This document shows positions 455 to 34,050 of a DNA stretch of 64,000 bases, piece after piece (within the stretch, counting starts at the first letter, position 1; every line of letters begins with the position of its first letter). The position numbers and the translations under genes are program-made. This DNA is from a virus, in the IMG/VR virus record IMGVR_UViG_3300031963_000064, positions 21,396 through 85,395 of that record. The stretch is one strand, 5' to 3'. The notes below the pieces were generated by a model. The model worked only from the letters and a program-made list of their open reading frames with translations, was not told the DNA's origin and ran no database searches.

Positions 455-736
455 TAGGAGCGGCGAGACTTGAACTCGCATAGCCGAAGCCGACGGATTT
501 TCTTACCACTACGACTTTCGCCGCCTCATAGAGTTTGTGGTCTGGACTATACCTTCACCATATCTTGTGATTTAGGTGCTCCCCGTCTAGTCTCTACACC
601 TTCATCTTTCGATGCTTGGCTCGGTATTGCCATTTTACAGGTTTCACCGAATTTGAGGAGTTACACTCATGAGGTTTCCCAAATGAGGCTCAATTTTACA
701 TAAGTCCGTTGTGTCTACCAATTCCACCACGCTCCC
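455..736 (-). tRNA. tRNA-Leu(UAA), split by a group I intron
   Basis: The 5' exon runs 736 to 702 and the 3' exon 501 to 455. Joined, they fold as a class II tRNA. The acceptor is GGGAGCG with CGCTCCT (first pair G-U), the anticodon stem is ACGGA/TCCGT around the loop CTTAAAA (anticodon TAA), there is a long variable arm, and the T arm is GCGAG-TTCAAGT-CTCGC. The discriminator is A and no CCA is encoded. The exon junction falls between anticodon positions 34 and 35, exactly where cyanobacterial and plastid tRNA-Leu(UAA) genes carry their group I intron. The gene has its own near-consensus promoter at 750-778. It would supply UUA decoding, a frequent codon in an AT-rich phage. Confidence 0.9.
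502..701 (-). ncRNA. Group I intron (IC3-like) inside tRNA-Leu
   Basis: This 200-nt insert has the hallmarks of the cyanobacterial tRNA-Leu intron. The 5' splice site is preceded by U, and exon CUU can pair with intron GAG (U-G wobble at the cut) in the conserved TTGAGCC. There is a P/Q-type core (GGTGAAACCT, then ATACCGAGCCAAGC). The R region at 575-599 contains AGAGACTAGACGGGGAGC. The S region at 539-563 contains TATAGTCC, which pairs with AGACT to form P7. The last intron base is G, directly before AAAATCC of the 3' exon. It carries no open reading frame, so it should be a self-splicing, endonuclease-free intron. The well-studied Anabaena intron is about 249 nt, so this one is somewhat shorter. 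Confidence 0.9.
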
Positions 737-778: not shown

Positions 779-779
779 G

Positions 780-853
780 TGCAGGTTGTGGGGATCGAAC
801 CCACCTTAGCCGAATTATGAGTTCGGTGCTTTCAACCAGAGAGCTAAACCTGC
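780..853 (-). tRNA. tRNA with CAU anticodon (elongator Met type)
   Basis: The acceptor GCAGGTT pairs with AACCTGC. The anticodon stem CCGAA/TTCGG closes the loop CTCATAA (anticodon CAT). The T arm is GTGGG-TTCGATC-CCCAC and the discriminator is A; CCA is not encoded. The CTCATAAT loop and its flanks look like elongator tRNA-Met. A tRNA-Ile2 whose C34 becomes lysidine would show the same anticodon in DNA, so the amino acid is not settled by inspection. Confidence 0.85.
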
Positions 854-857
854 ACGA

Positions 858-929
858 TGGGAACAGCGGGAGTTGAACCCGCGCTAAGCACTTATAAGGT
901 GCCCGCTCTAACCATTAAGCTATGCTCCC
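858..929 (-). tRNA. tRNA-Ile(UAU)
   Basis: The acceptor GGGAGCA pairs with TGTTCCC (one G-U). The anticodon stem GGCAC/GTGCT encloses CTTATAA, giving anticodon TAT. The T arm is GCGGG-TTCAACT-CCCGC and the discriminator is A; CCA is not encoded. It would read AUA directly. Most bacteria read AUA with a CAU tRNA modified to lysidine, so an unmodified UAU isoleucine tRNA is unusual and would make AUA decoding independent of host TilS capacity. Confidence 0.85.
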
Positions 930-931
930 AT

Positions 932-33200: not shown

Positions 33201-34050
33201 AGTTTCCTGTTGCAGCAAGACTACTACGTACAGTGCTTAAATTTGCGCTAGTTGGTGCTAAAGCAGTTGTATCTGATGAATATGTAAGTTTATCCATCGT
33301 AGATACGTTAGAAGGAGATAATCCACCTCCAAAGTATCCTGCTGTTGAAGAACCTGTTGCGGCAAGAGAATAGCGAGCAACAGTTAAGTTTGCACCAGGA
33401 ATGAGACTACATGTGTCATAAACATATGTAACCTTATCCATTGTCGATCTTGGAGATCCCTCAAAACCACCACCAAAGTATCCTGCTGTTGTGGATCCTG
33501 TCGCACCAAAACCAAAACGAGCAACATTTAATGCGGCACCAGGAACTGCTGCTGTAGTATCAGTTGAATAAGTCAACTTATCCATTGTTGAATATGTACC
33601 AGGAACACCAGGAAATAGACCACCACCAAAGTATCCTGCCGTTGAGTTTCCTGTTGCAGCGAGAGCACGACGAGCAACACTTAAGAATGCACCAGGAACT
33701 ACCGCAGTAATATCAGTAGAATAATTAAGTTTATCTACTGTCGAATAAGCACCAGGAGCAAAACCACCACCAAAGTATCCTGCTGTTGAGTTTCCTGTTG
33801 CAGCAAGTTGATAACGAGCAGCACTTAATGCAGCACCAGGAACTACCGCAGTAATATCAGTAGAATAATTAAGTTTATCTACTGTCGAATAAGCACCAGG
33901 AGCAAAACCACCACCAAAGTATCCAGTATTTGATGCTACTGATTGTAGTGGTGATGGTGAAACCCATATATCAGTTAGCGGAACATAATCTCCTGCTAAT
34001 GAATTATCAACAACATCAAATAGTCCAAAAACCCCCCGTGTATCAGGCAT
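30211..34050 (-). CDS. Giant Kelch-like repeat fibre, paralog 2 (1279 aa)
   Basis: Begins MPDTRGVFGLFDVVDNSLAG. I count 24 GYFGGG-type repeats in four blocks of six, with linkers LSSRANALPGVVSTLP, ASSARANALFQPPATTV and ASARANALPQPTFQTG. It is the most diverged of the three: several blades depart from STMDKVTY (for example MSKLSYNSNTM, VDKLNYSTD, ASKLTYSTE). It ends NALPGNSQISFNV. The first two blades carry a duplicated segment, FAPGAYSTVDKLNYSTD, that is the same at DNA level (a recent internal duplication). It overlaps by 8 nt the DUF6445-like gene upstream. Confidence 0.8.
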   Translation of the reverse strand: MPDTRGVFGLFDVVDNSLAGDYVPLTDIWVSPSPLQSVASNTGYFGGGFAPGAYSTVDKLNYSTDITAVVPGAALSAARYQLAATGNSTAGYFGGGFAPGAYSTVDKLNYSTDITAVVPGAFLSVARRALAATGNSTAGYFGGGLFPGVPGTYSTMDKLTYSTDTTAAVPGAALNVARFGFGATGSTTAGYFGGGFEGSPRSTMDKVTYVYDTCSLIPGANLTVARYSLAATGSSTAGYFGGGLSPSNVSTMDKLTYSSDTTALAPTSANLSTVRSSLAATGNSTAGYFGGGNSPGVSSTMDKLTFATENTSAVATAALSIPRNTLAALSSRANALPGVVSTLPSSASSKFIDGTLSPQTGYFAGGASSATVDKLNYSTDLTAAIPSAFFAVARAQQGATGNTTAGYFGGGFDYSISNFVSSVQIITYAADTNAVAPTTAFFSSINYGLSATGNSTAGYFGGGSPGTRMSKLSYNSNTMSDLPGAALSISRSKLAATGNSTAGYFGGGFNNISRMDKVTYSTDTTAAVPGASLSAARAALAATGNSTVGYFGGGYYFTGSAFNYHSTMDKVTYSTDTTAAVPGAALSAVRYGLAATGSSTAGYFGGGGTSGPVSSTMDKVTYSSDTTAAVPGAALSVARYDLAASSARANALFQPPATTVTPTIFNASVPNTGYFGGGGPSPSTSSSTMDKVTYSSDTTVAVPGASLSVARRGSAATGNSISGYFGGGIVSPNLYSTMDKVTYASDTTAVVPGAALSAARKYLAATGSSSAGYFGGGNPVASTMDKLTYSSDTTAALPGASLSARSGLAATGNSTSGYFGGGFPGPLTTMEKVTYSTDTTSAVPGAALSIARYSLAATGSSTAGYFGGGVPASSTMDKVTYSTDTRSTVPGAALSATRYSLSATGSSSAGYFGCGFSGAIVATMDKVTYASDTTAAVPGAALSAARTYLGAASARANALPQPTFQTGTIFSNFGYFGGGIASFVYSTMDKVTYASDTTAAVPGAALNGARYNHCATGNSTTAYFSGGPQPGSSSDYSLMDKIYYITDTKTIISGSSITRDRRNIAAVSSPAAGYFGGGGFPAAPGPYSNASKLTYSTEIISQIPSLSSPRYGASATGNSTAGYFGGGNNFTPLPGARTTVDKITYSNDFISALPTAGFLSVGSNVAATGNSTAGYFGGGFVNPNAYSTMDKLTYSTDTRSTIPGASLSAARDSVVATSSLVAGYFGGGGSRSTMDKVTYSIDTTAAVPGAFLSVARNNFAASSATSNALPGNSQISFNV
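33720..33920. repeat. Recent internal duplication in fibre 2
   Basis: The segment coding for FGGGFAPGAYSTVDKLNYST and its flanks occurs twice in a row, in the first and second blades, with identical bases over the core (about 33720-33770 and 33855-33915). The rest of the fibre's blades are more diverged. Confidence 0.7.

Follow-up and report, generated by a model that had tools for sequence, protein, structure and literature searches.

How an intron comes to interrupt a phage tRNA gene, and what might keep it there, is the question raised by a locus near one end of a 64,000-nucleotide stretch of viral DNA (hereafter the window, which is positions 21,396-85,395 of a record of 85,395 bases). 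On the minus strand, 35 nt at 736-702 and 47 nt at 501-455 join to form a tRNA-Leu(UAA) of 82 nt whose variable arm is long, and the insert that separates them, at 701-502, is exactly 200 nt long and interrupts the anticodon between its first and second bases. The features of the locus are as follows.

455-501, minus strand: 3' exon of tRNA-Leu(UAA), 47 nt, starting AAAATCC and ending at the discriminator A, with CCA not encoded
502-701, minus strand: group I intron of 200 nt, running from its first base at 701 to the terminal G at 502, with no HNH gene inside (RF00028 and structure)
702-736, minus strand: 5' exon of tRNA-Leu(UAA), 35 nt, ending GGACTT (sequence and joined cloverleaf)
779-853, minus strand: tRNA with a CAT anticodon, immediately upstream in the same cluster (ARAGORN)
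856-930, minus strand: tRNA-Ile with a TAT anticodon, in the same cluster (ARAGORN)

The interrupted gene and its phage

The original prediction, made from the sequence, had described a perfect UAA tRNA-Leu split by a 200-nt insert with a group I core, a U before the 5' cut, a terminal G and a GAG guide for CUU, and in these respects it was borne out. The joined exons form a cloverleaf with a UAA anticodon that ARAGORN calls tRNA-Leu(taa), in agreement to the base (the program's own tRNA end being one base longer than the assigned exon end), and the length of the insert and the presence of the core are likewise as described. All of the splice-site features are present: a U precedes the 5' cut, CUU pairs with the GAG guide so that a U.G pair lies at the cut, the intron ends in G, and the conserved core is there. 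The group I model RF00028, which had been named as a check, matches at 711-525 with 58.5 bits (E 2.9e-12), above the gathering score of 50. When ARAGORN was run without its intron option, the unspliced gene was not called, and only the neighbours with CAT and TAT anticodons were found. Among the 975 leucine codons of 24 chosen ORFs of the window, UUA is the most frequent (350), and a spliced tRNA-Leu(UAA) would therefore be useful.

PHROG families were matched by eight of ten tested window proteins, identifying the DNA as that of a phage; four of the matches are to tail proteins, one each to an endolysin/peptidase, an SSB and PhoH, and one to a family of unassigned function with a weak baseplate match, a T4-like baseplate hub being among them, while the other two proteins had no PHROG match. 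When window positions 1-25000 were compared by megablast with the phage collection, Synechococcus phage S-SRM01 (Kyanoviridae) came first, with 44% of the query covered at 78% identity. Its tRNA cluster, in the order Ile(TAT), HNH gp048, Met(CAT), Leu(TAA), is orthologous to that of the window by its flanks (85.7% over 112 nt upstream and 72.8% over 453 nt downstream). The S-SRM01 tRNA-Leu(UAA), which lies in the same place as that of the window and is given at 33604-33676 in the accessible text of PMC8557907, is intron-less, 73 nt long and has a short variable arm; because the tRNA itself differs in this way, the locus is not a clean empty site, and no clean intron-less allele with homologous exons was found in any close relative. 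Two viral contigs (L038 and L122) have introns identical to that of the window, together with identical flanks of 1,500 nt upstream and 453 nt downstream, and are therefore the same kind of virus.

Intron fold and covariation

A group I structure was written by hand for the window intron, comprising P1, P2, P3, P4-P6 with P6a, P7, P8, P9 and the terminal G, and all 49 written pairs are canonical in the window. The helices, all on the minus strand, are listed below, with the share of paired cells in 37 phage introns where it is informative.

689-704, minus strand: P1, exon CUU (704-702) with guide GAG (691-689) and a U.G pair at the 5' splice site, the same in 37/37 rows
666-687, minus strand: P2 (687-683 with 670-666) and an inner 2-bp stem, the weakest helix, 62.7% of cells paired
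579-660, minus strand: P3 (660-657 with 582-579), with P4-P6 and the 5' strand of P7 lying between its two strands, 95.9% paired
621-650, minus strand: P4 (650-646 with 625-621) and P5 (641-640 with 631-630)
599-619, minus strand: P6 (619-618 with 600-599) and P6a (614-611 with 606-603), GAAA loop, short insert
545-592, minus strand: P7 (592-588 with 549-545), the guanosine-binding helix, and P8 (578-575 with 559-556)
505-541, minus strand: P9 (541-537 with 509-505) and two inner hairpins

Covariation was measured in these 37 phage introns shorter than 240 nt, greedily chosen at less than 93% identity from among the matches listed. Of 1773 cells, 93.6% are paired, as against a mean of 73.5% in shuffled controls, and both-side changes occur in 350 cells, as against 103.5 (sd 9.3) for shuffled and 54 for the best slid version. 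Such changes affect 31 pairs, including four of the four pairs of P3, and the covariation score is 0.506 compared with 0.146 for shuffled and at most 0.093 for slid alignments. P7 and P8 are paired in 100% of cells across the 37 rows, as are P9 and its second inner hairpin, with the first inner hairpin at 86.5%; the terminal G of the relatives was preset by the search pattern. The minimum free energy of the single sequence is only modestly below that of shuffles (z -1.85, with 7 of 200 shuffles equally stable), in a folding model that leaves the pseudoknot out. The window gene thus has, between intact exons and at a defined position, an intron whose P3-P9 group I core and pseudoknot are backed by covariation and by RF00028.

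Distribution among phages and bacteria

Huge phages of the phage collection have an intron at this site too, namely LR756501 (735 kb, the match to LR756503 being the same) and LR756511 (595 kb), as has the Agrobacterium jumbo phage Atu_ph07, where no tRNA is annotated at the intron copy. A scan with a 3'-end pattern found at least 119 viral contigs, so that the phage side comprises 123 sources among the matches listed (the window, the three phage records and 119 viral contigs). With exon limits in relatives chosen by stem pairing (in L141 an alternative cut was set by hand), a joined tRNA-Leu was obtained for 113 of the 123 among the matches listed, 112 with a UAA anticodon and one, L010, with CAA, and these 113 genes form 87 clusters at 97%. 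No joined tRNA was obtained for the remaining ten among the matches listed (L014, L016, L048, L057, L076, L087, L090, L120, L121 and L124), several of which end early. RF00028 reached its gathering score in nine of 15 chosen sources, a close relative of the window intron (L039) being below it; an E value of 0.001 was reached in eight of nine records, five of these above the cut-off. For the introns of three of the sources (L002-L004) one search gave no RF00028 report, and their tRNA-Leu genes went uncalled by ARAGORN without the intron option. Since the intron-less mode and annotation both miss these genes, counts of phage tRNAs may be too low. Judged by sequence, this intron is no one-off in the window phage and is widespread at tRNA-Leu(UAA) genes of phages.

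The same pattern found at least 119 bacterial contigs, and 107 of the 119 among the matches listed gave a joined tRNA-Leu, always UAA, with 12 giving none. Among the matches listed, these contigs are assigned by their titles to Pseudomonadota (58), Bacteroidota (35), Bacillota (11), Acidobacteriota (11), Bdellovibrionota (3) and Planctomycetota (1); many are contigs of metagenome-assembled genomes, and some could be phage DNA.

Several observations were made alongside this survey. A short variable arm (tRNA of at most 78 nt), unlike that of normal leucine tRNAs, occurs in 18 of the 113 phage tRNA-Leu genes among the matches listed, and examples of such a tRNA-Leu(UAA) are L005:7605-7677, L039, L024 and L055. 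In two viral contigs a tmRNA gene shares the stretch with an intron-bearing tRNA-Leu (L039:3971-4223 and L012:390-747), the former matching the cyanobacterial tmRNA model. Microcoleus phage My-WqHQDG has a tRNA-Arg gene (CCU by reading), annotated as 286 nt at L261:1313-1598, with an apparent 213-nt group I intron that scores below the RF00028 gathering score and would be a second kind of phage tRNA intron. Part of the query was also matched in 1273 plasmid records, mostly enterobacterial and 1271 of them at 60-80% identity; in two enterobacterial plasmids (L246:2501-2639 and L247:2501-2747) the match lies near an aac(3)-II resistance gene.

The question of a cyanobacterial origin

The original prediction had called the intron cyanobacterial-type and had proposed that the phage captured an intron-bearing gene from a cyanobacterium. 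Two facts favour such a capture by a cyanophage from its host, namely that the window phage belongs to a cyanophage group and that the host tRNA is the same as that of the cyanobacterial and plastid trnL intron (as given in the accessible text of PMC4476775). The intron itself points elsewhere. Against a single reference intron from Anabaena its identity is 58% when counted over length and 75% when counted over aligned bases, whereas among the matches listed its closest bacterial match, in Rhizobium genome contigs, is at 81.4% and another phage reaches 94%; the intron is also present in phages of other hosts. The P6 insert is 19 nt in the window, 17-27 nt in phages (69 of 70 introns measured) and 17-91 nt in bacteria (66 of 68), as against 56 nt in the Anabaena reference, and the fifth P7 pair is A-T in the window and A-T or T-A in 70 of 70 short phage introns, as against C-G in that reference. 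Thus, neither the closeness nor the long P6 insert and C-G pair of the cyanobacterial trnL lineage, as represented by one reference sequence, was found in the window intron.

Scans of viral contigs agree with this. A strict cyanobacterial 3' pattern gave no match, and a cyanobacterial core pattern found one viral contig (L257:3860-4208), with no tRNA visible in the stretch read. Cyanobacteria account for none of the 119 bacterial contigs among the matches listed, a count that is not independent evidence as the pattern was drawn from phage introns, and in a quick tree the Anabaena reference joins a phage row (L073) weakly, via long branches. On identity, the P6 and P7 features and the two viral pattern scans, all with one cyanobacterial reference sequence, host capture was set aside as very unlikely, and the label cyanobacterial-type is not supported.

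Separate histories of intron and exons

The intron and the exons differ in their histories. In the case of L039, the intron is 94.0% identical to that of the window and the tRNA exons only 62.7%; for L032, a locus orthologous to that of the window by its flanks, the values are 92.1% and 75.9%. The comparison with L039 thus gives near-identical introns in unlike exon backgrounds, the pattern by which a mobile intron is recognised. Other relatives look like products of vertical descent, with introns at 92.0% and exons at 98.8% for L070, and 90.5% and 96.4% for L037/L095. More generally, 153 introns shorter than 260 nt form 448 pairs that are at least 85% identical among the matches listed, 277 between phages and 171 between bacteria, and in 162 of the 448 exon identity falls more than 10 points below intron identity. 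No phage-bacterium pair of short introns reaches 85% among the matches listed, and therefore no recent crossing between phage and bacterium is seen.

A quick tree of 126 rows, in which 52 of 123 inner branches are weakly supported, was used for the clustering of labels and the clade of the window. Phage and bacterial rows group strongly by label (10 changes, as against 41-42 when shuffled), yet phages and bacteria do not form one clade each, the starred branches forcing at least three changes. The window falls in a clade of five phage rows with support of 94. Sequence comparison thus supports traffic of the intron between phages. This upholds one part of the original suggestion that the phage might be a vehicle for the intron; the other part, shuttling between cyanobacteria, is not borne out by these comparisons.

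An HNH endonuclease family inside and beside the gene

No HNH gene lies inside or beside the window tRNA gene, and the record holds one weak HNH-like match, outside the window. The relatives differ in this respect. One HNH family is found inside 30 of 38 phage introns of at least 400 nt, and inside 20 of 21 bacterial introns of that length and two of 86 shorter ones, among the matches listed. Since 43 proteins of these loci went into the profile, with L032 and L039 alone contributing flanking ones, the counts for HNH genes inside introns hold partly by construction. The other eight long phage introns include six with another ORF, and the three of these that were tested match HNH_3 above the cut-off. 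The original statement that such introns lack endonucleases is therefore right for the window copy and wrong for its family.

The short phage introns show a different arrangement, whereby in 23 of 71 loci among the matches listed an HNH gene of the same family is at most 100 nt away from the tRNA gene, 13 downstream on the opposite strand, four downstream on the same strand and six upstream. In one further locus it is 4.7 kb away, and in 47 none was found, some of the stretches being short (among the matches listed). For instance, the L032 HNH ORF (519-992) starts 44 nt after the tRNA and ends at about the start of the downstream flank shared with the window. Relative to a uniform spread over 941,571 flank bases, the presence of the HNH gene within 600 nt in 23 of the 24 loci has a P of about 2e-19, and after collapsing at 97% clusters (15 of 16) a P of about 1e-12. 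An HNH gene within 600 nt is found in five of 80 short bacterial loci among the matches listed. By comparison, contigs with the mature tRNA core of the window and no intron have the HNH family in none of 13 cases (Fisher p 0.016 against the 23 of 71 short introns, which is only indicative as the lineages differ).

The HNH assignment varies in strength between members. The L039 protein passes the Pfam HNH_3 and HNH cut-offs and the L032 protein falls just below; the intron protein of L003 passes the Pfam HNH cut-off and that of L008 does not. A PDB sequence search with the L039 protein gave a best E value of only 0.3. Two annotated endonucleases elsewhere fall outside the family: S-SRM01 gp048, annotated as HNH, has no Pfam match, and the same applies to the 'DNA endonuclease' (L006:2562-2996) beside the intron-less tRNA-Leu(UAA) of S-RIM32, a rejected candidate. 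It was also observed that the HNH ORF lies on the strand opposite the tRNA in the introns of L130, L132, L143, L176, L177, L188 and the viral contig L077, the bacterial contigs among these being gammaproteobacterial except for L176 (Acidobacteriota).

A proposed mechanism and its alternatives

From the anatomy of these loci we infer splicing, a working tRNA and homing. The window intron is probably a mobile tRNA-Leu intron copy without an endonuclease, belonging to a family spread by homing HNH endonucleases encoded inside the intron or beside the gene. Its transcript would fold into P1-P9 and self-splice in two guanosine-started steps, leaving an intact tRNA-Leu predicted to read UUA and UUG. 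The family appears to have passed from the tRNA-Leu(UAA) genes of some phages to those of others, and it also occupies the site in many bacteria. An HNH endonuclease from the intron loop or the adjoining gene would cut an intron-less tRNA-Leu gene at the conserved anticodon arm, and repair would copy the intron together with exon sequence next to it and, in many cases, the gene for the endonuclease. Even with no endonuclease gene, the window copy would still remove the target site and may thereby shield the phage from the endonucleases of its rivals. Both the presence of the intron in different exon backgrounds and the placement of the HNH genes would be explained by homing in which the HNH endonuclease is internal or neighbouring.

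That shielding is itself the main reason for keeping the intron, by destroying the target of HNH endonucleases of co-infecting phages, is a possibility we regard as doubtful. In other phages, genes of the HNH family often flank this gene or lie within it, and interference between phages by an intron endonuclease has been published (accessible text of PMC11620839), but cleavage here is putative, and shielding is compatible with homing and not exclusive of it. Rather less likely is an old neutral passenger, inherited with the tRNA gene and at present immobile, with the HNH genes as unrelated visitors to tRNA clusters. The 47 of 71 short phage introns with no family HNH gene in the stretches examined, among the matches listed, would fit such inheritance, as would the exons of L070 and L037, 96-99% identical to those of the window, and many of the 47 may indeed be inherited without mobility. 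Yet a passenger should not recur as the same intron in unlike exons, nor would 23 of the 24 phage loci with an outside HNH gene among the matches listed be expected to have an unrelated visitor no more than 100 nt from the gene, with none at the 13 intron-less genes. It is most improbable that the intron serves to guard the pre-tRNA from anticodon nucleases or to regulate tRNA supply: before splicing the sequence has no normal anticodon loop, and phage tRNAs can counter tRNA-targeting defences (accessible text of PMC13096335), but the HNH-bearing relatives fit a mobile element better. Homing by an HNH endonuclease inside or beside the gene remains the preferred reading. Going further, and only tentatively, phage tRNA-Leu(UAA) genes may be a large overlooked reservoir of mobile group I introns, moved by one HNH family acting from within introns as well as from just beside the tRNA gene, with crossings over time involving at least six bacterial phyla and a contest over the anticodon arm during co-infection.

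Comparison with known systems

The cyanobacterial trnL intron has an insertion site and a CUU:GAG guide that we take to be the same as those of the window intron, and cyanobacterial and plastid trnL introns share with it the host tRNA and, in the window copy, the absence of an HNH gene. Against the one reference sequence, the window intron differs in its overall identity of 58%, its short P6 insert and an A-U in place of a C-G fifth P7 pair. In the accessible text of PMC1995217, 242 plastid trnL entries are without an ORF, unlike the phage relatives of the window intron that carry HNH genes. The only tRNA intron with a homing endonuclease gene in the accessible table of the same source is that of Synechocystis tRNA-fMet, encoding I-Ssp6803I; this is likewise a tRNA intron with a homing endonuclease, but combines a PD-(D/E)XK enzyme with tRNA-fMet, where here an HNH family is combined with tRNA-Leu. 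Outside cyanobacteria, putative group I introns in tRNA-Leu-TAA have been described for the proteobacteria Beggiatoa and Thiomargarita (PMC4853749); the tRNA is the same, but these are bacterial genomes, and no link to phages is drawn in the accessible text. Phages may be one of the ways in which bacterial tRNA introns came to be so patchily distributed.

According to the accessible text of a 2014 review (PMC3984707), phage introns to that date were all in protein-coding genes, despite the many tRNA genes of phages, a rule now broken by the window, three phage records and at least 109 viral contigs. The original prediction knew of no described phage example, and no published phage tRNA intron was recognised in the literature searched, most subscription journals being outside its coverage; the word 'intron' is absent from the main texts on huge phages (PMC7162821), Atu_ph07 (PMC6102473) and a Sinorhizobium jumbo phage (PMC11242549). 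Close relatives of the core do occur in capsid genes (HTVC120P and KT997847, matching 40% of the query at 78% identity and 24% of it at 92%), where the apparent group I intron sits in a protein-coding gene and not in a tRNA gene. Two-ORF capsid genes apparently split by a group I intron were observed at L258:1281-2455 (Pelagibacter phage HTVC120P) and L259:1127-2203.

The arrangement of the short phage introns recalls collaborative homing, as described in the accessible text of PMC3984707, for instance by a free-standing endonuclease at the cyanophage psbA intron site (Zeng 2009, as cited there). In both cases a cyanophage group I intron without its own endonuclease is accompanied by an adjacent endonuclease gene. 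Unlike in the psbA case, the target here is a tRNA gene, cleavage is only predicted, and the HNH family is also found inside introns. The occurrence of one family inside or beside the same gene makes directly testable the transition that has been proposed, in which collaborative homing would lead to a composite mobile intron.
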